Part shown: in pieces, positions 3,165-31,094 of the stretch
Layout: the number at the start of each line of letters is the position of its first letter
Numbering within the stretch: position 1 is the first letter of the stretch
Source: Chitinophagaceae bacterium
GTDB lineage: Bacteria; Bacteroidota; Bacteroidia; Chitinophagales; Chitinophagaceae
DNA: 36,472 nucleotides
NCBI GenBank assembly: GCA_947452875.1
Contig: CANGEZ010000002.1
Location: 1 to 36,472, forward strand
Direction: 5' to 3'
Made by a program: the position numbers and the translations under genes
The notes under the pieces: model-generated
Seen by the model: only the letters and a program-made list of their open reading frames with translations
Databases searched by the model: none
What the model was told of the DNA's origin: nothing

Positions 3165-6100
3165 TTATTCAATAGTAAACCTAACTGATTTTGTATATTG
3201 GCCTGCTTTCAATGATAATTGATACCTACCCGCTTTAAATTCTTTTGTATTGAATTTGAATAGATGACTTCCGGCATCTTCGTCAGCTTCTTTACATGTT
3301 TTTATGAGTGTACCTTTTTCATCATGTAAAGTGATCAGCACGTTCGCTTGTTTTTTCAAATAGTACTCAACTATGTTTTCTGCTTTTAACACATCGGTCT
3401 TCAATACTAATTCCTGAGAAAATGCATTATTGAAATCTTGTGGCGTATTGGATGTCGCATTTTTCAATGTGCCAGGAAGCACAGATGATTCAATCACAAA
3501 CTGCATTAAATCTCCGGCGCAAACATAGTTGGTCGTGCCGCCAGTGCTATACACCCTTAATCTAATTTCTCCGGTTGATGATATATAATTTGCAAAGTTG
3601 TTTGATTGAACAACATTAATGGTTGCGTCTATTGTTGAAACTGTGGAAGAATTTATCAAAGTCCATGAAGATGTTGTCCAGTCATAAAGAAATAAATCCT
3701 GAGTTTGCGAAACTGAATTATTACCATCATAATTAATAGTAAGCTTATTCACTGTGTTTATCGGTTGGTTGATGGTAACACTTCCATACCAATCTACTTT
3801 TCGTGTACCCGTAGTCGTTGACTTAACAGTATAATAATCGGAATTATTGCTGATCAAGGCTCCTGCTTTACATCTGCAACCTGTTCCAAATGAAACATTT
3901 GTGTTAGATGGTGAATATGCATAATTGGTTCGTACAATAAAATTTTGATTCACATTAGTTGCGGCACTATAAATACCATTTCCAGATTGAGATGCTGTAA
4001 TTATTGCAATTCCTGAACCAACCACATGAATCATATTATTTACAATAGTCGCAACTGAAGCATTAGAACTAGAATAAGTAACTGTCAATGCTGAACTTGA
4101 TGTTGCATCTGATGCAAAATCTGCGTCTCCTATTGATTTAAGAGGAAGTGCAGCGAATGTAATAGTTTGAGAAAGATAATTGACAGCCATGGTTAAAGTG
4201 CAAGTTTGTCCACCAAAGCTTAATGCAAAGTTGGCATTACCCGCAGCCGAAGGTGTACCCGTGATGTTATAAGTCAATGTGCCTTCACCATTAACTGATG
4301 TTCCTGCTTGTAAAACTGCATTAAGCCCCGTTACACCTGTAGATGCAATCGCACTTCCTGCAGAATAAGCGATACTGTTTTCTCCAATATAAGGGACAGT
4401 AGCCGTTCCACTATAAACTGTTGTTGCAGATGCTGCAGTTGAAAAAGTTGCTGCACCACAATTCATTGAAATGGCTGTAGGCACTGTTGTTGAAACTCCT
4501 GATCGCTGATAAAACCCTCTGTTGGGAACTGATGTTGAAGAAACTGTATTTCCAAAATAATCAAAGCCTCCATTATTACTAACTAACTTACCCGAATTTA
4601 ATGCAGGTGAACCGGTACGTAATTTATATCCGCTCAATGTATTAATTCCAGTGGCTCCTGTACCAACACCAAGAAAAAGCGGACTCGATATTAGTTTAAA
4701 TGGATCTGCAGGTTCTGTAGCATGATGGCTTCCATAAAAAGTATTATTTGAAATATTTCTGGTTTGCACTCCTGTGCCAGTTCCAAAAACATAATCAGCT
4801 CCGGTAATCGCACTACTCAGGTTATAGATGATGTTGTTGAAAAAATTATACGTATGATTATTGCCACTATTTTCGTGAATGATATTGGGGTTAATTCCTG
4901 ATTTTATATAAAAAACATTGTTGTAAATTTCATTCCCAGCTGAAGAATAATTTAAAAATACCAAATCGCCCAAATCATTCTGACTAACACAATACCTTAA
5001 GGTACATCCAATATCTCCGGGGTCGGGAATACCGGTTGTATTATTAGTTGCGGATCTTGTGTTGCAACCCCAATATATCCCTTGTGAATTATCATGGCTG
5101 TAACTGTATTGAAAAATGATACCTACACTTCCAAAGTCAGGATCATACATGCTTCCATCAATGACTCCGGGATCAACCGTCTGGGTGGTAGCTCTGTTAT
5201 AATAGCCTTCATTGTATTGAAACACCGTTCCTTTGGCACGTGCAGTAAACATGGTGTTACCGGTAGTTCCCAAAGCGGTTTCATAGCAAACATTCTTTTC
5301 AATCAATCCTGTTTCATCGGTGCAACGGATGATCATCGCATTTTTACCAATGTGATGTAGTGTGTTGTTTTTTATCCATACACTACTGAATCTTCTGTTG
5401 TACCAGTTTGTATATTCTGTTTGGTCAGCAGCCACTGATGAATTTTGGCCTCCAGGATAATACACATTCCATTCATTATCTAAAGAAATTCCATTGTTCT
5501 CACAGTAGTAAATATTGCAACTGTCTATCAACACATCATTAAATCTAGATTTTGTTAAACTGGTTTCAACGGTATCCAAAACGGCAAAATAAATACCACC
5601 GGTTCTTTTTGGTGTCGCTCCATTTATTTTCGTACTGCCGCTTCCCAATTGTCCTTTTACATGATGTATATTGAGATTTTTAAGATAAATATGATTTGCT
5701 GTTCCATAACCATCGATGGCCACCATCACACCACGTCTATCTGCTCCAAGTGGATTGAGATTTACCGCAGCTGTATCATTATAAATACCCAGAAAAAAAT
5801 CTGCATCGTTAGGCTGGTTGGGTGTATTTGTAATTTCAAGATTATTGATTTCAATATACTGTTGGTTATATAGATAAACAACGCCCTGACCAATAATTCC
5901 ATTTCCATGAATAATGGGTTTGGCGCCGCTACCATATGAAGTCACAACAATTGAATTTGTTGGGGTACCTGAGCCTTTAAATTTTATTTGCTGTGATGTC
6001 CATACAGAACCTGATTTTAGGTTTATTGTAGATCCGGCAGTCAATGTCAGATTGTAAATTTTGGTAAGGTTTTTCCATGGAGTACCCACTGATGTACCAG

Positions 6101-6206
6101 AGTTGGTATCATTACCTGAAACCTGATCAATGTAATAATTAGTCTGCGCTTGCGAAATATATCCGACAAGAACAAACAACATCACTAAAGGATATTGAAA
6201 TTTCAT
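3165..6206 (-). CDS. Secreted right-handed parallel beta-helix protein with Ig-like region and T9SS-type C-terminal sorting domain
   Basis: Signal peptide (MKFQYPLVMLFVLVGYISQAQ); many 'IxIxNNxI' beta-helix repeats; C-terminal 'VLITLHDEKGTLIKTCKEADEDAGSHLFKFNTKEFKAGRYQLSLKAGQYTKSVRFTIE' resembles T9SS type A. Paralogue of 27978..31094. Confidence 0.8.
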   Translation of the reverse strand: MKFQYPLVMLFVLVGYISQAQTNYYIDQVSGNDTNSGTSVGTPWKNLTKIYNLTLTAGSTINLKSGSVWTSQQIKFKGSGTPTNSIVVTSYGSGAKPIIHGNGIIGQGVVYLYNQQYIEINNLEITNTPNQPNDADFFLGIYNDTAAVNLNPLGADRRGVMVAIDGYGTANHIYLKNLNIHHVKGQLGSGSTKINGATPKRTGGIYFAVLDTVETSLTKSRFNDVLIDSCNIYYCENNGISLDNEWNVYYPGGQNSSVAADQTEYTNWYNRRFSSVWIKNNTLHHIGKNAMIIRCTDETGLIEKNVCYETALGTTGNTMFTARAKGTVFQYNEGYYNRATTQTVDPGVIDGSMYDPDFGSVGIIFQYSYSHDNSQGIYWGCNTRSATNNTTGIPDPGDIGCTLRYCVSQNDLGDLVFLNYSSAGNEIYNNVFYIKSGINPNIIHENSGNNHTYNFFNNIIYNLSSAITGADYVFGTGTGVQTRNISNNTFYGSHHATEPADPFKLISSPLFLGVGTGATGINTLSGYKLRTGSPALNSGKLVSNNGGFDYFGNTVSSTSVPNRGFYQRSGVSTTVPTAISMNCGAATFSTAASATTVYSGTATVPYIGENSIAYSAGSAIASTGVTGLNAVLQAGTSVNGEGTLTYNITGTPSAAGNANFALSFGGQTCTLTMAVNYLSQTITFAALPLKSIGDADFASDATSSSALTVTYSSSNASVATIVNNMIHVVGSGIAIITASQSGNGIYSAATNVNQNFIVRTNYAYSPSNTNVSFGTGCRCKAGALISNNSDYYTVKSTTTGTRKVDWYGSVTINQPINTVNKLTINYDGNNSVSQTQDLFLYDWTTSSWTLINSSTVSTIDATINVVQSNNFANYISSTGEIRLRVYSTGGTTNYVCAGDLMQFVIESSVLPGTLKNATSNTPQDFNNAFSQELVLKTDVLKAENIVEYYLKKQANVLITLHDEKGTLIKTCKEADEDAGSHLFKFNTKEFKAGRYQLSLKAGQYTKSVRFTIE

Positions 6207-6523: not shown

Positions 6524-8047
6524 ATGAAATCAACAAATAGTATTCGTTCTATTATTATCGCTTCTTCATTAGGTACATTAATTGAATGGTACGATTTTTT
6601 TATTTTTGGTAGTTTGGCGGTAGTGATTTCCACAAAATTTTTTCCACAGGGAAATCAAACCGTTGCTTTTCTTTCAACTTTAGCCACTTTTGCTGCAGGA
6701 TTTGTGGTACGTCCTTTTGGTGCTTTGTTTTTTGGAAGATTGGGTGACCTGATAGGCAGAAAATATACCTTCATGGTCACATTGTTATTAATGGGTGGTT
6801 CTACTTTTTTAATTGGTTGTGTACCAAATTATGCCACTATAGGCTATTGGGCTCCCTTGCTGGTATTGATATTGAGATTGCTTCAAGGATTGGCACTAGG
6901 TGGTGAATATGGTGGTGCTGCTACTTACGTTGCCGAATACTCGCCAAGTAGTGAAAGAGGTTTCTGGACTTCTTGGATACAAATCACAGGAGCCGCAGGT
7001 TTATTTATTTCGCTGATTGTGATTTTAATTACCAGAAATATTCTGGGTACTACATCTTTTGAAGATTGGGGATGGCGCATTCCATTTTGGATTTCAATCA
7101 TAATGGTCATCATCTCTTTCTTCATTCGAAGAAATATGGAAGAATCTCCTGTCTATTCAAAAATAAAAGCAGAAGGGAAAGTTTCAAAGAATCCACTAAA
7201 AGAAAGTTTTGGTAATCGATACAATTTCAAATTTGTTTTAGTTGCCTTATTTGGTGTAACTATGGGACAAGGTGTAGTTTGTTACACTGGTCAATTTTAT
7301 GCCTTGAGTTTTATTGGAAAAGTGTGTGGTGTTGTCAACCAACAAACAGATTCAATCATGGCTATCGCATTGTTAGCCACAACTCCATTCTACATTGTGT
7401 TCGGAGGTTTATCAGATAAAATTGGAAGAAAACAAATAATGATGTTTGGCATTTTGCTCGCAATTATTGCTTACCGTCCTATTTACAGTGAAATATTTTC
7501 AAATACAGAATGTTCAAAAAAGATTGAAATCACTGAAAAGAGAAAAACAAAAATCACATCTTTTCCTATTGAAGGAAGTGCTAGCCGTTTGATTCAAACA
7601 ACAGTTACTACAAGTTTCTATACAGATGGAACAACAATGGAACTGATAAAAAAAGATACACTACTCTCCAACGGAATCGTCAAAGAAAATAAAGAAATAA
7701 AAAAATCGATAACGCTGAACAATACTAGTTATTGGACTATCGTATTACTTGTATTCATTCAGCTATTATTTGTAACTATGGTGTATGGTCCGATTGCTGT
7801 ATTTTTGGTAGAGTTGTTTCCAGCGAAAATAAGATACACATCTATGTCATTGCCTTATCATATTGGTAATGGTGTTTTTGGAGGGTTGTTACCAACAGTA
7901 GCTACTTATCTCGTTACTACAGCAAAATCAGAAAACAATCCTGAATGGTATTTGAATGGGTTGTGGTATCCTATAATCATAGGAGCTGTTTGCTTTGTGA
8001 TTGGAATGATTTTCTTAAATAAAACAAATAATAAAACCGAAGATTAA
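6524..8047 (+). CDS. MFS transporter, metabolite:H+ symporter (MHS)-like, with ~75-aa extracytoplasmic insertion
   Basis: MHS-type motifs 'GTLIEWYDFFIFG', 'GRLGDLIGRKYTF', 'RLLQGLALGGEYGGAATYVAEYSP', 'GGLSDKIGRK'; hydrophilic insert at about residues 325-400. Confidence 0.88.
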   Translation: MKSTNSIRSIIIASSLGTLIEWYDFFIFGSLAVVISTKFFPQGNQTVAFLSTLATFAAGFVVRPFGALFFGRLGDLIGRKYTFMVTLLLMGGSTFLIGCVPNYATIGYWAPLLVLILRLLQGLALGGEYGGAATYVAEYSPSSERGFWTSWIQITGAAGLFISLIVILITRNILGTTSFEDWGWRIPFWISIIMVIISFFIRRNMEESPVYSKIKAEGKVSKNPLKESFGNRYNFKFVLVALFGVTMGQGVVCYTGQFYALSFIGKVCGVVNQQTDSIMAIALLATTPFYIVFGGLSDKIGRKQIMMFGILLAIIAYRPIYSEIFSNTECSKKIEITEKRKTKITSFPIEGSASRLIQTTVTTSFYTDGTTMELIKKDTLLSNGIVKENKEIKKSITLNNTSYWTIVLLVFIQLLFVTMVYGPIAVFLVELFPAKIRYTSMSLPYHIGNGVFGGLLPTVATYLVTTAKSENNPEWYLNGLWYPIIIGAVCFVIGMIFLNKTNNKTED

Positions 8048-8050
8048 AAG

Positions 8051-8278
8051 ATGAATACATTAAAAAAATACTCAGGCATAGTTTGGATAGTAATGGGAAT
8101 AGCTGTAGGTTATTTTAACATCATCATTATGGGTATTCCTAAATTTCAAACTGGAAAACAAGACGATCTTGTTTTTGGAATCGTAAACATGTTTGTACTA
8201 ACGCCAATCGTTGTAGGCGGATTATTAATTTTTGGCTATTACGCTCTAAAGGGAGAATATGCAGATGAAAAAGTATAA
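8051..8278 (+). CDS. Small two-TM membrane protein downstream of the MFS transporter (possible accessory subunit, DUF6814-like)
   Basis: 75 aa, two hydrophobic helices (IVWIVMGIAVGYFNIIIMGI; VNMFVLTPIVVGGLLIFGYYAL); starts 3 nt after the MFS stop. Confidence 0.65.
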   Translation: MNTLKKYSGIVWIVMGIAVGYFNIIIMGIPKFQTGKQDDLVFGIVNMFVLTPIVVGGLLIFGYYALKGEYADEKV

Positions 8279-8280
8279 GC

Positions 8281-8853
8281 CTACGCGTTATAATCATAGT
8301 TAATCATAATCCCCCAGCTCTCATTTAATCTTTGTTCACTGTAATCAGCATCAAAATTAATACTGTGGATTCTAGCTCCATTACTCAAATGGAATTTTGC
8401 TACAGGCCCATCCCAAGATTCTAAATATTTTCTGATAGAAGGCTCATCCGGTTTCGTATTGAAACAATCTTTCATCAAAGGAGAAGGAGATAAGGTGTAG
8501 AAATTATTAATGCCTTTCAATCTGCAATGTTCTATCAAAGTTTTTATAGCCATTGTGCCCGCACCTTTTATAGTGCATGTCGACAATCTGAATATGGAAT
8601 AAAATATGGCAAAGGTAACATCGTATTTACTGCTGTATCCATCATCGTTCAACACTTCTGCCATATTATGAGGAATACGATTTCCAATTCTTGCACAAAT
8701 CATAAACTGAGGAATATCATCCTGCGCATAAACAAAAATGGTACGGTTTCCGGTTATTCTTCTTTTTATTGATATACCAGGATGCACGGGGTCTTCTTTT
8801 ATAAAATCAAACCATTCACTTTTAAATGCAGGGGTACCGTGTTCTATAATCAT
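8281..8853 (-). CDS. Stand-alone malonyl-CoA decarboxylase C-terminal (GNAT-fold) catalytic domain
   Basis: Motifs match the MCD C-terminal domain: 'DPVHPGISIKRRI', 'VTFAIFYSIF', 'FYTLSPSPLM' (catalytic Ser), 'GPVAKFHLSNGARIHSINFDADYSEQRLNESWGIMINYDYN' (catalytic His). No N-terminal helical domain. Directly follows madLM. Confidence 0.82.
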   Translation of the reverse strand: MIIEHGTPAFKSEWFDFIKEDPVHPGISIKRRITGNRTIFVYAQDDIPQFMICARIGNRIPHNMAEVLNDDGYSSKYDVTFAIFYSIFRLSTCTIKGAGTMAIKTLIEHCRLKGINNFYTLSPSPLMKDCFNTKPDEPSIRKYLESWDGPVAKFHLSNGARIHSINFDADYSEQRLNESWGIMINYDYNA

Positions 8854-8862
8854 TTTATTTTT

Positions 8863-9615
8863 TTATGCTCCTATGATTTTGTTTACTATAAAATAAAGTA
8901 TTGATGGGCATAACAAGCAACCCATGGCTGTATGAAATGTTGCTGTTAAGGCTCCGTAAGGAACGAGTTTGATATCTGTTGCAGCTAGTCCAGCGGATAC
9001 GCCACTTGTAGAACCAACAACACCTCCAAAAATCATTGCGGATTGAGGGTCGCATACACCAAGCCGCTTCGCAAGGAAAGGTGTTGAGATGGTAACAATA
9101 ACAGACTTAATAACGCCTATGGCTATACTAATGGCAATCACTTCGGATGAAGCACCAACTGCTCCACCTGTAATAGGCCCAACAATGAATGTACAGGCAC
9201 CGCCACCGATCGTAGCAAAACTTTTGGCGTCAGTATATCCCATAGCATAACCTATAGATCCTCCAATCACAAATGCGATTACAGTTCCAATCAACAAACA
9301 GAAAATACCAACCAAGCCGGTCTTTTTAATTTCAGAAAAACTCGCGCCCATGGCAGTTGCGACAATAGCAAAATCTCTCATCATGGAACCACCAAGTATA
9401 GCCAATCCTGAAAATGCAGGAACAGATGCCAAACCTTTTTCACCACCACCAAAATAAGCCAATAACAAACCTACACTAATGGCAATTGCAGCACCAGGTA
9501 TTTTATGATTGGTCAATTTTTTGGAGATAATGTAAGACAAATACATCACGACTCCCACAAATAAGAATGCAAATACCAATCCATTTTTATCTAATATTCC
9601 GGCAAGATCTTTCAT
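8863..9615 (-). CDS. madM: Malonate transporter subunit MadM
   Basis: Polytopic protein with 'GGSMMRDFAIVATAMGAS', 'TIGGGACTFIVGPITGGAVGASSEVIAISIAIGVIKSVIVT', 'GGVVGSTSGVSAGLAATD'; adjacent to MadL. Confidence 0.9.
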   Translation of the reverse strand: MKDLAGILDKNGLVFAFLFVGVVMYLSYIISKKLTNHKIPGAAIAISVGLLLAYFGGGEKGLASVPAFSGLAILGGSMMRDFAIVATAMGASFSEIKKTGLVGIFCLLIGTVIAFVIGGSIGYAMGYTDAKSFATIGGGACTFIVGPITGGAVGASSEVIAISIAIGVIKSVIVTISTPFLAKRLGVCDPQSAMIFGGVVGSTSGVSAGLAATDIKLVPYGALTATFHTAMGCLLCPSILYFIVNKIIGA

Positions 9616-9623
9616 CTTTTATT

Positions 9624-9992
9624 TTATTGTTGAGCTTTATTTTTTACATAACTGATGATCAAAGGCACGGTTGCAAAACATACTACAGTTGCGAATATGC
9701 CAACAAGTAGAGCCACCCAACCTCCCGACATTGCCGCCTTTACATTTTGTGAAGCGGACATCGCAACAACCACAGGAATATACATCGTACTCCAGAATAA
9801 CATCCCACTCTCGGTTTCAGGCTTCAAGATGCCTTTCTTTTTGAAGTAATCATTAAAAAGTATTAAAATCAACATGGCAAAACCGACACCACCTAAATTA
9901 CCACTCATACCCAATGATTTTCCTAGTTGATCGCCCAATACATGACCTACTAAAAAACATCCTGCTAAAATGGCTACTCCATATATTTTCAT
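9624..9992 (-). CDS. madL: Malonate transporter subunit MadL
   Basis: 122 aa, 'YGVAILAGCFLVGHVLGDQLGKSLGMSGNLGGVGFAMLILI', typical MadL; adjacent to MadM. Confidence 0.9.
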   Translation of the reverse strand: MKIYGVAILAGCFLVGHVLGDQLGKSLGMSGNLGGVGFAMLILILFNDYFKKKGILKPETESGMLFWSTMYIPVVVAMSASQNVKAAMSGGWVALLVGIFATVVCFATVPLIISYVKNKAQQ

Positions 9993-10013: not shown

Positions 10014-11582
10014 TTATTTACCTGTTGTAATTTTATTTACAGATTCTTTGATGGATTTTCCCCATAATTTATATCCTTCGTCATTGTAATGCAATTTATC
10101 ATCGCGATATAATGCAGCATTGGGTTTTCCATCAGCATTTAAAAATTGTTGCCCTGCATCTATATAAAATAAATTCGGTTGTGACGCTGTAAATGTTTTT
10201 ACCAAATTATTCGCCTGTTGAATTTTATCCCACACACTCCATCTTTTTTCGCTTGGCGAAATGGCCAACCATGTTATCGGTGTGGTTGGATATTTTTCAC
10301 GGATGGTTTTTACAATGTATTTATACAATTCCAGAACCTGATCAGGTGATTTGTCTTTTTCTGTTGCCGTGATATCATTTCCTACATAAATGAAAATGGC
10401 TTTGGGTTGATGAGGATATACAATACGCTTGATGTAATAAGAAACGTCTATCAAATTAGAACCGCCAAACCCTCGATGAATGATGTCTTTGTAATCCAAG
10501 TCTATTCTGATATTCTTCCACATTCTGATATAAGAACTTCCTATAAACATAATCGCATTATCAGCATATTTTTCTGCTTTATTCAAACTGTCGAATGTGT
10601 TGATGTCTTTGTCCCAACGAAAAACACCTTCCTCATTTTTACCTTTATTGATTTTGAGTTGGGTGTATAACCAGACCGCCATGGATTGCACACAACTGTC
10701 TTGTTTGGTTTTGTTGTTATCTAGCGTGTGTCCGGTACCGTAGAAAGGACGCCATCCTGTAGCGATTCCCAATGAAAGGCAATGCTGGAAGAGTATGTAA
10801 GGTCCATATTTGAATCCGTGGTAATCATAAGAGCTGTCATAAGGAACGGTCTTGTCTTCTGTTCCTGCAGTATTAAACAAAGGCACATCGCCTTTTTGAA
10901 TCCATTTGTAATCAATCATAGCACCCCATGCATTCATGACACCATTGACTTTGGAAGAATACCCTTCATTACCACTGTTGCCTTCAAGCGTTCCCCATTT
11001 TTTTTGATTAACGGCAGCAGGAATTTCATTTTCGTTCATGTAAGCAATAGCCAAACATGTTTTTGAGCCTGCCGAACTTCCGGTTAAGAATATCTGAGAA
11101 GTATCAATGCCATATTCTTCAGCATGTTTCCTGAAAAAACGAACAGCTGCTCTTCCATCCTGCTGGGCACGATATAAGGCTTCTGCATAATCTTTATTAG
11201 TCTTGGCTTCCTTTCCATCTTCATAACCAGATTTTTCAACACCCAAACGGTAATCTATAGACGCTGTAACATATCCTCTTTTTGCAAAAGAATTGCAAAC
11301 CATCGAACTATAACTACCATTTTTAGAATTGTTTTGAAAACCACCGCCATGTATAAAAATCAACAATGGTCGGTATTTCAAGGTATCTCCTCTGGAAGGA
11401 AAAATGACATCAAGCAATAATTTTTCTTTATCTCCCTTTATATTTATGGCTTCTCCATATTGAACATTGTTTACAGAATCTAAAGATGAAAAAACTTCAT
11501 CTTTAAATCTTTTCTGAGCAATTGTATGATTTGCACAAAAGCAAAACAAAAAAAGTAAAATGGATTTTAAAATCTTCATCAT
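10014..11582 (-). CDS. Secreted two-domain esterase: N-terminal alpha/beta-hydrolase (carboxylesterase) fused to C-terminal SGNH/GDSL hydrolase
   Basis: Signal peptide (ILLFLFCFCANHTIAQ); N-domain 'FIHGGGF', 'GSSAGS', 'GTEDKTVPYD', 'GTGHT'; C-domain 'MFIGSSYIRMW', 'GGSN', 'YVGNDI', 'DKLHYNDEGYKLWG'. Confidence 0.85.
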   Translation of the reverse strand: MMKILKSILLFLFCFCANHTIAQKRFKDEVFSSLDSVNNVQYGEAINIKGDKEKLLLDVIFPSRGDTLKYRPLLIFIHGGGFQNNSKNGSYSSMVCNSFAKRGYVTASIDYRLGVEKSGYEDGKEAKTNKDYAEALYRAQQDGRAAVRFFRKHAEEYGIDTSQIFLTGSSAGSKTCLAIAYMNENEIPAAVNQKKWGTLEGNSGNEGYSSKVNGVMNAWGAMIDYKWIQKGDVPLFNTAGTEDKTVPYDSSYDYHGFKYGPYILFQHCLSLGIATGWRPFYGTGHTLDNNKTKQDSCVQSMAVWLYTQLKINKGKNEEGVFRWDKDINTFDSLNKAEKYADNAIMFIGSSYIRMWKNIRIDLDYKDIIHRGFGGSNLIDVSYYIKRIVYPHQPKAIFIYVGNDITATEKDKSPDQVLELYKYIVKTIREKYPTTPITWLAISPSEKRWSVWDKIQQANNLVKTFTASQPNLFYIDAGQQFLNADGKPNAALYRDDKLHYNDEGYKLWGKSIKESVNKITTGK

Positions 11583-13063
11583 GATTCGAATAATTTTTTG
11601 ACATCATTTTTGGTAACCTTACCCATAGCATTTCTTGGCAACTCATCTACAATCAAATATTTCCTTGGAGTTTTATACGCCGCCATTTTTTCTCTGAGCC
11701 ATTTGTTTAATTCATCCGTGTTGATGTTTTCATCTTTATCAACAATGGCTGATACAATCAACTCGCCCCATTCATCATTAGGAATTCCTACAACCGCACA
11801 ATCAGTAATCAATTCATATTTTCTCAGCTCTTCTTCGATTTCCAATGCAGATATTTTATACCCGCCAGATTTGATAATGTCCACTGAATTGCGACCCATG
11901 ATCCTGTAATATCCGTCTTCCACAATCGCTACATCTCCTGTTTTGAACCAACCATCTGCTGTAAATTCTTTTGCAGTGGCTTCTGGTTTTCTCCAATATT
12001 CTTTAAAAACATTTTTGCCGCGCACTAAGATTTCGCCAGATTCTCCAGGTTTAACTTCATGATATTCTTCATTCACCAATTTAACATCTACACCTTCCAA
12101 AGGCTTTCCAATATAACCCGCTCTTCTTTCCTCATGATAGGGATTGCTAATGGCCATTCCGATTTCTGTCATGCCATATCTTTCCAACAACACATGTCCG
12201 CTGATGTTTTTCCATCTTTCCATTACAGAAACTGGCAATGCCGCCGAACCACAAACCATTAATCTGAATTTTGACATACATTCCGTCATTGATTGTTGCT
12301 GCGCCTCAGTTAACGATTCCCAGTAGGTGATGAGTTTGAAATAAATTGTAGGTACTGCCATGAAAACGTTGATGGCTCCTTTTTGAAAAAGTTGGAAGAT
12401 ATGTTCAGCAGAAAATCCGTTTATAAATTCACAAACAGCACCGCTCCATAATGAGCTTGACACCACATTAACGATTCCGTGTACATGATGCAAAGGCAAT
12501 ACGCAAATGGTGTGATCGTTCTGACTCCATTCCCAGGCTTTTACTAAAGTAGAAATCTGCGCTTCGAGATTTTCATGAGTGGTAACCACACCTTTTGGTT
12601 TATTAGTTGTGCCGCTCGTATATAAAATCATGGCGCTTCTTTTGGCATCAATATCAGGTAATGTTTTTGGAGCAACATTGTTTTCATCTCCCAAAACAAT
12701 CAAGCGGATATTTTTTTCAGCAGTAAGGTCTTTCAACAAAGCTTCATACTGAGGTGATACCACAATAATAGAAGCTTCTGTATCTTCAATCACATATTGC
12801 AATGATGGCAACGGATGCGTGAGACACATGGGAACGGTTATACCTCCTGCACGCCAGATGGCCCATTGCACTTTCACATAATCAAAACCAGGGTCTACCA
12901 TAAATCCGATACGCGCTTCATGTAAATCAGCATCAGTTTCGAGCAATAATGATGCAAATTGTTCAGAAGCTTCAAGCAATTGGGCATAACTGTAATCAAC
13001 ACCATTACTGATGATGGCTTTCTTGTTTGTATAACTGATTGCATTGCTGATAATCTCTAACAT
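11579..13063 (-). CDS. matB: Class I adenylate-forming enzyme, malonyl-CoA synthetase (MatB/ACSF3-like)
   Basis: 'LYTSGTTNKPKGVVTTHENL', 'VLPLHHVHGIVNVVSSSLWSGA', 'NVFMAVPTIYFKL', 'LLERYGMTEIGMA', 'GWFKTGDVA...GRNSVDIIKSGGYKISALEIEEEL', 'LPRNAMGKV': close to recalled ACSF3/MatB motifs; adjacent to madLM and MCD. Confidence 0.82.
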   Translation of the reverse strand: MLEIISNAISYTNKKAIISNGVDYSYAQLLEASEQFASLLLETDADLHEARIGFMVDPGFDYVKVQWAIWRAGGITVPMCLTHPLPSLQYVIEDTEASIIVVSPQYEALLKDLTAEKNIRLIVLGDENNVAPKTLPDIDAKRSAMILYTSGTTNKPKGVVTTHENLEAQISTLVKAWEWSQNDHTICVLPLHHVHGIVNVVSSSLWSGAVCEFINGFSAEHIFQLFQKGAINVFMAVPTIYFKLITYWESLTEAQQQSMTECMSKFRLMVCGSAALPVSVMERWKNISGHVLLERYGMTEIGMAISNPYHEERRAGYIGKPLEGVDVKLVNEEYHEVKPGESGEILVRGKNVFKEYWRKPEATAKEFTADGWFKTGDVAIVEDGYYRIMGRNSVDIIKSGGYKISALEIEEELRKYELITDCAVVGIPNDEWGELIVSAIVDKDENINTDELNKWLREKMAAYKTPRKYLIVDELPRNAMGKVTKNDVKKLFES

Positions 13064-13077
13064 CTCAATAAATCTTT

Positions 13078-14526
13078 TTAAAAATTAAAATATTCTTTCG
13101 CATTGTGATAGCAAATATTTTGTACAATATTTCCAATCCATTTGGTATCATCGGGCAACAAACCTTTTTCCATTTCGTCGCCAAATAAATTGCATAAAAC
13201 TCTTCTGAAATATTCATGTCTAGAATATGAAAGAAAACTTCTGCTGTCGGTCAACATACCAACAAACGTGCTTACGGTACCCATATTTGATAAAGCGTTC
13301 AATTGCTTTTCAATACCATCTTTCTGATCTAAAAACCACCAGCCCGAACCATATTGCACTTTTCCTTTGGTGATCCCATCATTAAAATTATAACACATTG
13401 CAGCAAACACATCGTTATCTGCAGGATTGATATTGTATAAAATTGTTTTGGCTAATTGACCTTCTTTTTCAAGAGCATTTAAAAAATTTGCTAACGATGA
13501 CGCTTGACTGAAATCCCCAATTGTATCTACTCCCGCATCAGCACCCAATAAACTCAATAACCTTGAGTTGGTATTTCTGAGCGGACCCAAATGAAACTGT
13601 TGTACCCAGCCACGATTGTGATACATTTTGCATAAGGCAAGCAATACTGCACCAGCAAAGTTTCCAGGTGCAGAAAATGATGTAGCATTAGAACCTTGTA
13701 TGAACAATTCGAATTCTTTTTCAAGAGCGGTATTCATTTCAAATTGATCAGGCATTTTTGTTAAGCCATGATCGGAGATACGAGCACCATTTTCATGAAA
13801 ATAATCCATTCGTTTTTCGAGCGCCTCCAGCAATTGAGCAAATGTTGTGATACTCATGTCGGCAGCTTTTTCCAATTGATGGAAATAAGTAATGAAAGCT
13901 TCGCGGTTTCCAATATTGAAAATTTTATCGGGCCTAAAAGAAGGCAAAACATCTATTCCAATGTTATCTGCTTTTATTTTTTTATGATAAACCAAATCAT
14001 CACAAGGGTCGTCGGTTGTACCCACCATTTCTACCTGATAAGAGTTAAGAATGCCTTGAGTAGAATGGGTGTCTTGTTTTAGTATTTCATTGCAATGATT
14101 ATAAATTTTTATTGCATTGTCTTTGTTTAAATATTCATCAATACCAAAACTGTTTTTCAATTCCAATTGCGACCAGTGAAACAAAGGATTGCGAATGGTG
14201 TCCGGAAAACAAGTTGCCCAAGCCATAAATTTCTCTTCATCTGTTGTATCATTTCCAGTTATGAATTTTTCATTTACAGCCAAACCGCGCATGGCTCTCC
14301 ATTTGTAATGATCACCTTTCAGCCAGATTTCGGTAATAGAATCGAATTTTTTATTAGCCGCTATTTGATCAGGGGGTAAATGATTATGGTAATCAATGAT
14401 AGGCATATCTTTTGCAAAGTCGTGATACAACAGTTTTGCTGTTTCATTTTGCAATAAGAAATTATCATTGATAATAGTTCCAGATTTTTTTTGTTTTGTT
14501 CCGTTCGAAAACACAGCATTTTCCAT
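13078..14526 (-). CDS. uxaC: Glucuronate isomerase
   Basis: 'DMPIIDYHNHLPPDQIAANKKFDSITEIWLKGDHYKWRAMRG', 'GTTDDPCDDL', 'GMLTDSRSFLSYSRHEYFRRVLCNL': typical UxaC. Confidence 0.95.
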   Translation of the reverse strand: MENAVFSNGTKQKKSGTIINDNFLLQNETAKLLYHDFAKDMPIIDYHNHLPPDQIAANKKFDSITEIWLKGDHYKWRAMRGLAVNEKFITGNDTTDEEKFMAWATCFPDTIRNPLFHWSQLELKNSFGIDEYLNKDNAIKIYNHCNEILKQDTHSTQGILNSYQVEMVGTTDDPCDDLVYHKKIKADNIGIDVLPSFRPDKIFNIGNREAFITYFHQLEKAADMSITTFAQLLEALEKRMDYFHENGARISDHGLTKMPDQFEMNTALEKEFELFIQGSNATSFSAPGNFAGAVLLALCKMYHNRGWVQQFHLGPLRNTNSRLLSLLGADAGVDTIGDFSQASSLANFLNALEKEGQLAKTILYNINPADNDVFAAMCYNFNDGITKGKVQYGSGWWFLDQKDGIEKQLNALSNMGTVSTFVGMLTDSRSFLSYSRHEYFRRVLCNLFGDEMEKGLLPDDTKWIGNIVQNICYHNAKEYFNF

Positions 14527-14541
14527 GTTTAAATATTTAAA

Positions 14542-15720
14542 TTATTTTGATTCCAAAACATTTCTCATGATTCCCAATTCCAGTCCTCTTAATTCTGCAA
14601 GTCCTCTTAATCTTCCAATGGCGGAATAACCCGGATTGGTTTTCTTTTTCAAATCATCCAACATTTGATGTCCATGATCTGGACGCATAGGAATAGAAAT
14701 ATTTCTGCTTTGCATGATGCTTACTATTTCTTTAATCACAGCATACATATCGGCATCTCCTTCCAGATGATTGTCTTCATAGAAATCACCGAATTCATTT
14801 CTTTTGGTATTTCTCAAATGAATGAAATTGATTCTGTCGCCGAATTGTTTTACCATGGCTGGCAAATCGTTGTCTTCTCTTACACCAAAAGAACCAGTAC
14901 AAAAACAAAGTCCATTATTTAAAGAAGGAACTGCATCAATCAATTGTTGAACATCAGCAGCAGTACTCACTACACGAGGCAAGCCCAATAAAGGATAAGG
15001 AGGATCGTCAGGATGTATCACCATCTTCACGTTGCATTCATCTGCTACAGGTACAATTTCACTTAAGAAATAAATCAAGTGAGCACGAAGTTTTGCTGCA
15101 TCGATTCCATCGTATTTATCCAAAGCTGCCTGAAATTCTTCAATAGAAAAACTCTCTTCGCTGCCAGGCAAACCTTTAATCATATTTTGTTTGAGTAATT
15201 GCTTCTCATTATCATTCATCTCGGAAAATCTTTTTGTTGCTCTTTCTATTTCTTCAGCAGCATAATCAGCAACTGCATTTTTTCTTTTCAAAATAAACAA
15301 ATCGAAAGCCACCACTTCTGCTCTTACATACAATAACGCCAAAGAACGGTCGGGCATTTCATAAGCCAAATTGGTTCTTGTCCAATCCATTACCGGCATA
15401 AAATTGTAAGTAACAATATGGATTCCGCACGCACTTAAATTTCTGATAGATTGTTTATAGTTGTTGATATAAATCTGATAATTTTCAGCATGTGTTTTTA
15501 TCGCTTCATGCACAGGAACACTTTCTACAACCGACCATACCATACCAGCAGCTTCAACTTCGGCTTTTCTTTTTTGTATTTCTTCTGTAGTCCATACTTC
15601 ACCGTTAGGTATATGGTGTAATGCGGTTACAACTCCTGCACATCCCGCCTGTCTAATATCCCACAAGCTCACTGGGTCATTCGGACCATACCAGCGCATG
15701 GTTTGTTGCATTTGGTTCAT
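14542..15720 (-). CDS. uxuA: Mannonate dehydratase
   Basis: '[36 protein letters not shown]', '[22 protein letters not shown]', '[10 protein letters not shown]', '[12 protein letters not shown]': typical UxuA. Confidence 0.95.
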
Positions 15721-27977: not shown

Positions 27978-30900
27978 TTACTTAATAAATAATTTTTCCG
28001 CCAGCATTTTACCGGATTTTGAATCCAATACAGAAATCAAATAAGTTCCTGAAACCAGTTCACTTGTTTTGATTTCGAAATTCGCCGAATTGAAAATTGC
28101 TGACTTTATGTTTCGACCATCAATGTCTTTAATCTGAACACTAACCGGTAGAATAGTAGTAACCGGTAATGCAACATGAATATAATCCGTTGCAGGATTT
28201 GGATAAATACTAATATTTACTCCTTCATCAAAACTTAGTTTCCTGATCCCTGAATATGAATAACTGCCGTCGTTGTCAACCATTTTTAATCTGTAAAAAT
28301 TATTACCGGATAATGGAGACGGATCAAGATAAGAATAAGTTTTTGACGGATTCAAACTAGCTGTTGACATCACATTTCCAATTTTTGAAAACTGAATGTT
28401 ATTACCTGAACGCTCAATTTCAAAATGATGCAAATTGATTTCTTTTGTGGTGTTCCAATGTAATGAAGCGGTTTTTCTGATTTTTAATACATCAAATGAA
28501 GTCAATTCAACAGACAATACCGTTGTGCCCAAACCTTCATAAACACCACGGTTAGGGGCAGTTACAGGCAAGGCCGTTCCAAAAAAATCATGACCACCAT
28601 TGTTTGAAATAATTTTTCCATTGCTGATTGCAGGCGAACCGGGCATTAGCTTATAGCCCGACAAATAAGCAATTCCGGCAATACCAGAACCCGGACTTAA
28701 CAATTTAGGATCAGTTGTAAGTTTAAATGGATCTGAAGGTTCACTTGAGGGATGATTGCCATAAAAAACATTGTACTGAATCGTTCTGGTTTGCACTCCT
28801 GTGCCCGAACCAAAAGCATAATCCGCTGATGAACTTTGGTTATAAATGATATTGTTGTAAAAATTGTATTTGTGATTGTTGTTGTCGTTCTCGGTAATGA
28901 TGGTAGGACTTAATCCGGATTTGGAATAAAAAACGTTGTTGTAAATCTCATTACCTGCAGAAGAATAATTGAAATAAACAAGATGTCCCTTGTCGTTCTG
29001 ACTAATACAATAACGTAAAGTGCATCCCGTATCCTGAACATCAGGTATGCCGGTTGTGTTGTTATTGGAACCCCTTGTATTGCAACCCCAGTAAATACCT
29101 TCAGAATTATCGTGACTGTAACTATATTGGAATATAATACCAATGCTGCCAAAATCAGGATCATACATACTTCCGTCAATTGTTCCCGGATCGATGGTTT
29201 GTGTTGTTGACCTATTATTATAACCTTCATTGTATTGAAACACGGTTCCTTTGGCGCGTGCAGTGAACATGGTATTTCCAGTTGTTCCCAATGCCGTTTC
29301 ATAACATACATTATGTTCTATCAAACCGGTTTCATCAGTACAACGAATGATAACAGCATTCTTGCCGATATGATGAATGATATTGTTACTCAATTTGATG
29401 TTGGTGTATCTTCTGCTATACCAGTCTGCATATTCTGTTCCGCCGGGGTAATAAACATTCCACTCGTTATCAAATGAAACACCGATGTTTTCGCAATAGT
29501 TGATATTACAGCCGTCTATGAGCACATCATTGAATCTTGATTTTGAAGCAGCACTTTCACTATTATTGAGTACAGCAAAATATACACCGCCGGTACGTTT
29601 GGGAACAGCACCATTTACTGATGTCGTTCCGCTTCCCAATTGTCCTTTAATGTGATGAATGTTGAGATTTTTAAGATAGATGTGATTGGCAGTTCCGAAA
29701 TTATCAAGTGCCACCATAACGCCCCTTCTGTCTCCTCCCAAAGGATTTGGATTTGTACCTGTTGTACTATACAAACCAACAAAGAAGTCGGAATTTACCG
29801 GACCATTTGGTGAATTGGTGATTTCAAGATTGCTGATTTCAATGTATTGTTGATTGTACAAATAAACGACAGCTTCTCCGGTTAGGCCATTTCCGGCGAG
29901 CAAAGGCTTGGCACCCGTACTGTAACTGTCTACTTTAATTGGAGCCGTCGCTGTTCCTGAACCTTGGAATTTCAATTTCTGTCCGGTCCAAGTACTTCCA
30001 CATTTCAAATAAATTTCAGTTCCGGGGAGTACAGTTAATGTATTTAATTTGGAAACATTTTGCCAAGGAGTGTTGATAGACCCATTGTTATTGTCATTAC
30101 CTGCCAGTGCATCGATATAATAGCGTGTAACCACTACCGTTCCGTTAGTTGCACCCGATGTGACAACAGCGTTTGAATAATTGAAAGCCTTGTCAGTAGC
30201 ATAAACCCTGTAGTAGTAAGTTGTGTTCGCTGTTAGGCCCTGATCCGTAAATGAAGTAGAAGTTCCGATGTACACCACTTTTCCAGTTCCAATTGCGTTT
30301 CCTGTTTTGTAAATTCCATTACTGTTTGGATTCGGCTCTGCAGACGGATTTGAAGTATACCTCACAACCACATATCCACCGCCGTCAACATCAGCTGCTG
30401 CTGCCCAATTCACGTCTAAAGTTGTTGCTGTCGGATTGGAAGCTGCTGCTAAACCTGGGTCTGAAGGAGCCGTTTCATCCAAAGCTGAACCGGGATAAAC
30501 AACCCAATCATCGATATCCATCGACTTTAAATTGTTTACCGTATTGCTTGAAATTTTTATTGCAGCGAAACCATTGTTGGTGGCCACTGCAGGAGAAGTA
30601 ACAATTACAGAAGTCTTTGTAAATACTGCCGGATTGCCTGAAGGCACGAATGTTGTATAAACAGCCGTAGTCCCTGTGGCAGCGGATACGCCTGCCTGTA
30701 AGGTTGTATTTGGAAAATTCACTCCATCCGTCGCTTTACAATAAAACTGAATAACGTAAGAGACACTCGTACCAACCGGAGATGCAGGTGATAAATAGGT
30801 TCTTGGGCTTGTATTCACCGTATTTTTGGTATTGACAACAGTTATATATTGATCTCCTGTACGCGCACCACCGGTAACTATGGTAGCATTACCTGCACCA

Positions 30901-31094
30901 GAAGTTCCTCCTCTGGACCAAACAGTAACATCTGGCGTGCTGCTGGATGCCGTACTAGATAAAGCTCCTACAGACTGGCCTTCATACCCGCCATCCATTT
31001 GAGAGAATGTTCCAATGTATTGCTGGCCATAAATGAATTGCGAAAAGCAAAACAAAAATGACAATACCAATAGCTTCTTAGCGTTGTTTTTCAT
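27978..31094 (-). CDS. Secreted Fn3 + right-handed beta-helix protein with T9SS type A sorting domain
   Basis: Signal peptide; Fn3-like module ('GGGYVVVRYTSNPSAEPNP...NTTYYYRVYATDKAFNYS'); beta-helix core homologous to 3165..6206; C-terminal 'ISIYPNPATDYIHVALP...LVSGTYLISVLDSKSGKMLAEKLFIK'. Confidence 0.85.
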   Translation of the reverse strand: MKNNAKKLLVLSFLFCFSQFIYGQQYIGTFSQMDGGYEGQSVGALSSTASSSTPDVTVWSRGGTSGAGNATIVTGGARTGDQYITVVNTKNTVNTSPRTYLSPASPVGTSVSYVIQFYCKATDGVNFPNTTLQAGVSAATGTTAVYTTFVPSGNPAVFTKTSVIVTSPAVATNNGFAAIKISSNTVNNLKSMDIDDWVVYPGSALDETAPSDPGLAAASNPTATTLDVNWAAAADVDGGGYVVVRYTSNPSAEPNPNSNGIYKTGNAIGTGKVVYIGTSTSFTDQGLTANTTYYYRVYATDKAFNYSNAVVTSGATNGTVVVTRYYIDALAGNDNNNGSINTPWQNVSKLNTLTVLPGTEIYLKCGSTWTGQKLKFQGSGTATAPIKVDSYSTGAKPLLAGNGLTGEAVVYLYNQQYIEISNLEITNSPNGPVNSDFFVGLYSTTGTNPNPLGGDRRGVMVALDNFGTANHIYLKNLNIHHIKGQLGSGTTSVNGAVPKRTGGVYFAVLNNSESAASKSRFNDVLIDGCNINYCENIGVSFDNEWNVYYPGGTEYADWYSRRYTNIKLSNNIIHHIGKNAVIIRCTDETGLIEHNVCYETALGTTGNTMFTARAKGTVFQYNEGYNNRSTTQTIDPGTIDGSMYDPDFGSIGIIFQYSYSHDNSEGIYWGCNTRGSNNNTTGIPDVQDTGCTLRYCISQNDKGHLVYFNYSSAGNEIYNNVFYSKSGLSPTIITENDNNNHKYNFYNNIIYNQSSSADYAFGSGTGVQTRTIQYNVFYGNHPSSEPSDPFKLTTDPKLLSPGSGIAGIAYLSGYKLMPGSPAISNGKIISNNGGHDFFGTALPVTAPNRGVYEGLGTTVLSVELTSFDVLKIRKTASLHWNTTKEINLHHFEIERSGNNIQFSKIGNVMSTASLNPSKTYSYLDPSPLSGNNFYRLKMVDNDGSYSYSGIRKLSFDEGVNISIYPNPATDYIHVALPVTTILPVSVQIKDIDGRNIKSAIFNSANFEIKTSELVSGTYLISVLDSKSGKMLAEKLFIK

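Follow-up and report, generated by a model that had tools for sequence, protein, structure and literature searches.

A predicted stand-alone malonyl-CoA decarboxylase in Chitinophagaceae malonate loci, with relatives in large tRNA-rich phages

Results

A short gene closes a malonate operon

The window, by which we mean the whole 36,472-nt stretch of Chitinophagaceae contig CANGEZ010000002.1 that was analyzed, contains a same-strand run of genes in the order uxuA-uxaC-matB-esterase-madL-madM-MCD, separated by gaps of 8–21 nt or by a 4-nt overlap. The run comprises genes for a mannonate dehydratase (uxuA; 14542–15720 (−), PF03786, 439 bits), a glucuronate isomerase (uxaC; 13078–14526 (−), PF02614, 626 bits), a MatB-like malonyl-CoA synthetase (11579–13063 (−)), a two-domain esterase that overlaps matB by 4 nt (10014–11582 (−)), the malonate transporter subunits MadL (9624–9992 (−); TIGR00807 equivalog, 143 bits against a cut-off of 113) and MadM (8863–9615 (−); TIGR00808 equivalog, 325.7 bits against a cut-off of 236) and, last, a short protein matching malonyl-CoA decarboxylase (MCD; 8281–8853 (−)). 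The MatB-like ligase is best matched in NCBIfam by malonyl-CoA synthase (386 bits, below the cut-off of 558) and in the PDB by R. palustris MatB (4fuq, E = 3e-76). It keeps the equivalents of Arg299, His209, Ser277, Met247 and Met486 of that enzyme (residues according to PMC6122825), with Arg255 replaced by lysine. The esterase combines a BD-FAE α/β-hydrolase domain with an SGNH/GDSL domain (Pfam, with weak matches to solved esterases), begins with an N-terminal signal-like stretch, and may release malonate esterified to a glycan or glycoside. An esterase of this architecture is kept beside matB in several loci and is a candidate malonyl esterase.

Genes for a GH2 enzyme, an SASA esterase and SusC/SusD proteins lie upstream of the run, which places the cassette near a polysaccharide-utilization-type locus with a glucuronate branch. 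On the other side, a convergent gene for a metabolite/H+ symporter-like MFS protein (6524–8047 (+)), in which a long stretch after residue 325 falls outside the main family match, is followed by one for a DUF6814 protein (8051–8278 (+)); an MFS gene of the same kind also lies downstream of the short MCD at three other loci (L003–L005). Two large secreted proteins (3165–6206 and 27978–31094) flank the locus and have long stretches in common (such as 'DRRGVMVA...NHIYLKNLNIHH'); no recognized catalytic Pfam domain was found in either.

The MCD reading frame starts with ATG, encodes 190 residues and contains no internal stop. Its sole Pfam match is PF05292 (MCD; 83.8 bits against a cut-off of 23.2, E = 1.9e-23), and PF17408 (MCD_N) was found neither in the protein nor, as a separate gene, in its genome, in agreement with a first-pass annotation that had described an MCD catalytic domain lacking the N-terminal helical domain. 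That annotation had also placed the start 9 nt from the madM stop; indeed, madM ends at 8863 and the frame starts at 8853, leaving the gap 8854–8862. Neither the intact full-length MCD that would have spoken against a minimal enzyme nor any other MCD was found in the source genome, although at 90.9% completeness of that genome the missing second MCD is not absolute; nor was a malonate decarboxylase alpha subunit found there. No NCBIfam model recognizes the short protein, nor the one full-length MCD tried.

A complete active site in a reduced scaffold

Canonical MCD consists of a helical oligomerization domain of 130–150 residues and a catalytic domain of 270–300 residues, in which a helical insert between β5 and β6 blocks the usual GNAT strand pairing and to whose active site other subunits contribute little (Froese et al. 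2013, PMC3701320). The full-length MCDs compared here have 417–528 residues, with the N-terminal region present. By contrast, the short protein has less than half the usual size; its homology begins at residue 1, equivalent to β1 of the catalytic domain, and its C terminus lies just past the equivalent of human Tyr456. Three elements are thus gone: the N-domain, most of the β5–β6 helical insert, and the C-tail. The first-pass alignment, which ran from 'HP...KRR' to 'GIMINYDYN', was right in both coordinates and motifs.

The active site was compared across 33 sequences (14 bacterial short proteins, 8 short proteins of phages and 11 full-length MCDs). The catalytic pair of human MCD, Ser329/His423 (PMC3701320), corresponds to Ser122 (codon 8488–8490 (−)) and His155 (codon 8389–8391 (−)), each invariant in 33 of 33; both codons had been singled out from the letters alone, and they align with the catalytic serine and histidine of five PDB MCDs. 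Equally invariant in all 33 are Tyr188 (codon 8290–8292 (−); human Tyr456, which holds the catalytic histidine), with a His–Tyr spacing of 33 in all sequences listed, and Phe84 (codon 8602–8604 (−); human Phe288, which lines the leaving CO2). The Ser–His spacing, however, is 33 in the short proteins versus 49–90 in the 11 full-length MCDs; by published numbering it is 94 in human MCD and 34 for Thr355–His389 of CurA (PMC3701320). Asp170 (codon 8344–8346 (−); R. palustris Asp404) is an aspartate in 22 of 22 short proteins, whereas CurA has at this position Arg404, an arginine linked to S-transfer (PMC3701320). Glu178 and Trp180 ('ESW') are likewise invariant in all 22, with Trp180 occurring in none of the full-length sequences.

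The main live alternative is the decarboxylation of another malonyl thioester, be it methylmalonyl-CoA, malonyl-ACP or a further β-carboxyacyl-CoA. Related GNAT domains of polyketide synthases (PKS) act on ACP-bound malonyl groups (PMC10127204), MatB enzymes accept methylmalonate as well (PMC6122825), and the phage proteins have FYT in place of FYS at the pocket strand. The pocket residues of the short protein are nevertheless those of MCD, and the bacterial operon is geared to malonate, as seen from its MadLM equivalogs and the carboxylate-binding residues of its MatB. We therefore regard another substrate as improbable; the changed substrate for which the first-pass annotation had allowed gained no positive support.

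Malonyl-CoA decarboxylases are the nearest structural relatives

Searched as a single sequence against the PDB, the short protein matched five MCD sequences (E = 2e-11 to 5e-6), followed by a GNAT at E = 0.8; a profile built from 11 homologues matched MCDs exclusively. An AlphaFold2 model of the protein (mean pLDDT 91.3, pTM 0.87) retrieved all 17 MCD chains of the PDB at Foldseek ranks 1–17 (best E = 1.9e-12). These were followed by the GNATL domain of CurA (9e-7) and then by acetyltransferases mixed with the decarboxylases GphF and SxtA.

That the protein is an ordinary GNAT N-acetyltransferase, or a malonyl/acetyl transferase, merely resembling MCD is very unlikely. It is short, has the GNAT fold, and carries in motif A a GxG loop (G97, G99) that lacks two residues relative to MCD and is nearer to that of GNATs; moreover, aminoglycoside acetyltransferases appear in the Foldseek list from rank 19. 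The first of these, however, scores E = 4e-6 against 2e-12 for MCD, so the better GNAT match that could have undercut the first-pass reading did not materialize. MCD comes first in Pfam, in PDB sequence and profile searches and in Foldseek, with no GNAT Pfam match at all; the general-acid tyrosine position of canonical GNATs is occupied by a histidine, and the Ser/Tyr/Phe/Asp set of MCD is present. On these profile, PDB and fold rankings, a plain GNAT acetyltransferase was rejected.

Among known systems, canonical MCD (PF17408 plus PF05292; structures from human, R. palustris, A. vitis and C. metallidurans) is alike in catalytic family, fold and active-site set. The short MCD differs from it in being 24–34% identical, in lacking the helical domain and C-tail, in its closer Ser–His spacing and in forming a separate clade. 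The GNAT-like decarboxylase domains of PKS (CurA GNATL, GphF, SxtA) are also compact, at ~200 residues without a helical domain, and use a Ser/Thr–His dyad whose spacing in CurA nearly equals that of the short MCD. They are, however, embedded in PKS and act on ACP-bound substrates, whereas the short MCD has a gene of its own within a malonate operon, and the profile search yielded no detectable sequence match to them. The malonyl-ACP decarboxylases MadA/MadB (PF09500) are small malonyl-thioester decarboxylases too; their activity resides in a hot-dog domain and not in a GNAT domain (PMC8666670), and this different fold rules out kinship.

A constrained family in Chitinophagaceae

Of 299 genomes sampled from the family, 8 carry the short gene; one genus has it in 7 of 13, and it also occurs in three named Chitinophagaceae metagenome-assembled genomes (83–92% identity). 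Neither searching 398 genomes of the phylum with PF05292 nor screening 249 genomes of the order with a profile brought up a further carrier, and a sample of the class (296 genomes) contained, besides the window, two full-length MCDs and nothing else. All 14 bacterial proteins compared have 190–199 residues; the same length at 13 further loci argues against a local frameshift or truncation in the window.

A matB-like gene belongs to the cluster at all 12 short-MCD loci with a visible neighborhood (truncated in one), and uxuA lies within the same cluster in several. MadLM accompanies the short gene in the window and at L003–L005, and an unrelated MFS protein takes its place at L014, L016, L017, L018, L020, L041 and L042; MadM was absent from the seven other carrier genomes tested. 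At the locus with the truncated ligase (L019, genome G252), only 316 residues of that enzyme are left, and they run into the apparent end of an MFS gene; nothing of the esterase and little of the MFS gene remains, no transporter is left, and the short MCD is intact. This arrangement looks like a recent deletion or an assembly join.

As the full-length MCDs compared have an N-terminal region, the short protein could be a degraded remnant of one, or one part of a split enzyme with the N-domain encoded at another locus, but this is extremely unlikely and was rejected on the neighborhoods, the MCD_N search and the substitution pattern: the upstream neighbor varies among loci (MadM, MFS or MatB), so that no N-terminal half has been lost, in line with the first-pass remark that there is no upstream half; no convincing MCD_N was found in eight carrier genomes (the source and seven related ones; one weak sub-threshold match in G203 contains an internal stop), with a control in which the same model finds MCD_N in two full-length Bacteroidota MCDs at E of about 1e-16; and the architecture recurs in 14 bacterial and 8 phage proteins with dN/dS of ~0.02 in three pairs with estimable, if high, dS, a ratio that points to strong purifying constraint.

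In a tree of catalytic domains, a branch supported at 100/100 separates the bacterial and phage short proteins from the full-length MCDs, and the bacterial short proteins have 95/98 support. The tree is unrooted, since the profile search missed CurA and so provided no outgroup, and would be compatible both with reduction from a full-length MCD and with descent from an older compact form. A short enzyme conserved in bacteria, with relatives in phages, is a real protein family and not a broken gene.

Clusters of matB-madL-madM without any MCD occur in six other Chitinophagaceae (L056–L061; genomes G026, G256, G216, G262, G011 and G208), in which no short MCD was found beside the cluster or elsewhere; G011 retains the complete uxuA-uxaC-matB-esterase-madLM order without the short MCD. 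The decarboxylase is thus optional in the cassette, and malonyl-CoA in these organisms may go directly to fatty-acid synthesis.

Relatives in large tRNA-rich phages

A scan of IMG/VR returned 13 loci with eight distinct, unannotated lone-domain MCD homologues of 183–199 residues, 39–49% identical to the bacterial short proteins (contigs with such homologues: L062–L074 and L077–L089). They are encoded by two lineages of tRNA-rich phage contigs of up to 364 kb, with 14–33 tRNA genes in the stretches examined, and contigs of different metagenomes have a common gene order around the MCD homologue. Members of the first lineage (L063, L064, L065, L067, L069 and copies), to which contigs of up to 364 kb belong, have among the features read a kinase, a virion structural protein, AhpC and AhpD-like genes and a T4-type RNA ligase (phrog_562, E = 1.5e-54), and as many as 28 tRNA genes lie within 20 kb. 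The second (L062, L066, L068) carries UvsX and UvsY (read on L089) and 31–33 tRNAs.

Two phage homologues score 74 bits for MCD in Pfam, and a fold model of one (pLDDT 94.2) matched the 17 MCD chains first. PHROGs contains no family for these homologues, INPHARED gave one weak match only, and the matches in BFVD were ordinary GNATs or unrelated proteins, none of them MCD-like. No MatB or MadLM partner is visible beside the homologues in the stretches examined, so their function there need not be malonate catabolism, and no close viral relative of the MatB of the window was found. Mosig_00145 of Pelagibacter phage Mosig, considered as a further short MCD, was rejected as a weak match whose nearest Pfam family is Acetyltransf_1, just below the cut-off. 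This 161-residue GNAT-like protein (L076:7920–8405) adjoins a thymidylate synthase gene and has TLSP and FHIRNGA motifs that resemble the MCD dyad.

Discussion

The gene at the end of the operon very probably encodes a naturally minimal, stand-alone MCD for the final step of malonate catabolism, a member of a distinct family shared with large tRNA-rich phages. This reading, in which the first-pass proposal of a naturally minimal decarboxylase is upheld, rests on computed evidence: a profile match to MCD alone, a fold nearest to MCD, a full active site, monophyly and purifying selection of the short family, the malonate operon, the phage relatives, and a genome in which no other MCD and no MCD_N was found. 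Catalytic activity and substrate are deduced from these data. MadLM would import malonate, which the operon esterase probably releases outside the cytoplasm; the MatB-like ligase would turn it into malonyl-CoA, from which the short MCD would then yield acetyl-CoA and CO2 by the MCD mechanism. Ser122 and His155 would polarize the thioester carbonyl, with Tyr188 orienting His155; CO2 would leave by an apolar exit over Phe84, and Ser122 would protonate the enolate. Neither the helical domain nor the β5–β6 insert would be needed for the reaction. With the oligomerization domain gone, a changed quaternary structure is likely, and the short MCD is probably monomeric, or dimeric in the manner of GNATs, rather than the dimer or tetramer built on helical domains.

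The operon itself has precedents. Canonical MCD of alphaproteobacteria has the same MatB/MadLM partners as the window, and Paracoccus has a GntR-MCD-MatB-MadL-MadM cluster of the same composition but with a full-length MCD. The MatA/MatB operons of rhizobia and Rhodobacterales likewise unite a transporter, a malonyl-CoA synthetase and an MCD, whereas here the MCD is short, the run includes hexuronate catabolism genes and a SusCD locus is near. Compact GNAT-type decarboxylase domains are already known from PKS (CurA, GphF, SxtA), which limits the novelty; what raises it is the free-standing enzyme in a malonate operon and, more than anything, the phage relatives. A partial literature search found nothing on MCD in Chitinophagaceae, and in the main text of the large-phage papers covered the word 'malonyl' is absent.

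A bolder proposition, which we hold with about even confidence, is that the short MCDs are a family not described before, made up of stand-alone malonyl-CoA decarboxylases with a GNAT fold and occurring both in malonate/glycan loci of Bacteroidota and in large tRNA-rich phages of at least two lineages. In the phages they would act as auxiliary metabolic genes that turn host malonyl-CoA into acetyl-CoA, throttling host fatty-acid synthesis or redirecting carbon during infection.

If the predicted activity holds, the MCD reaction in primary metabolism would need the GNAT core alone, and the short MCD would offer a minimal model of an enzyme that in humans is linked to disease and serves as a drug target. 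It would also connect MCD, in both sequence and architecture, with the GNAT decarboxylases of PKS. The phage homologues suggest that some phages may act on malonyl-CoA, the compound through which membrane lipid synthesis is entered.
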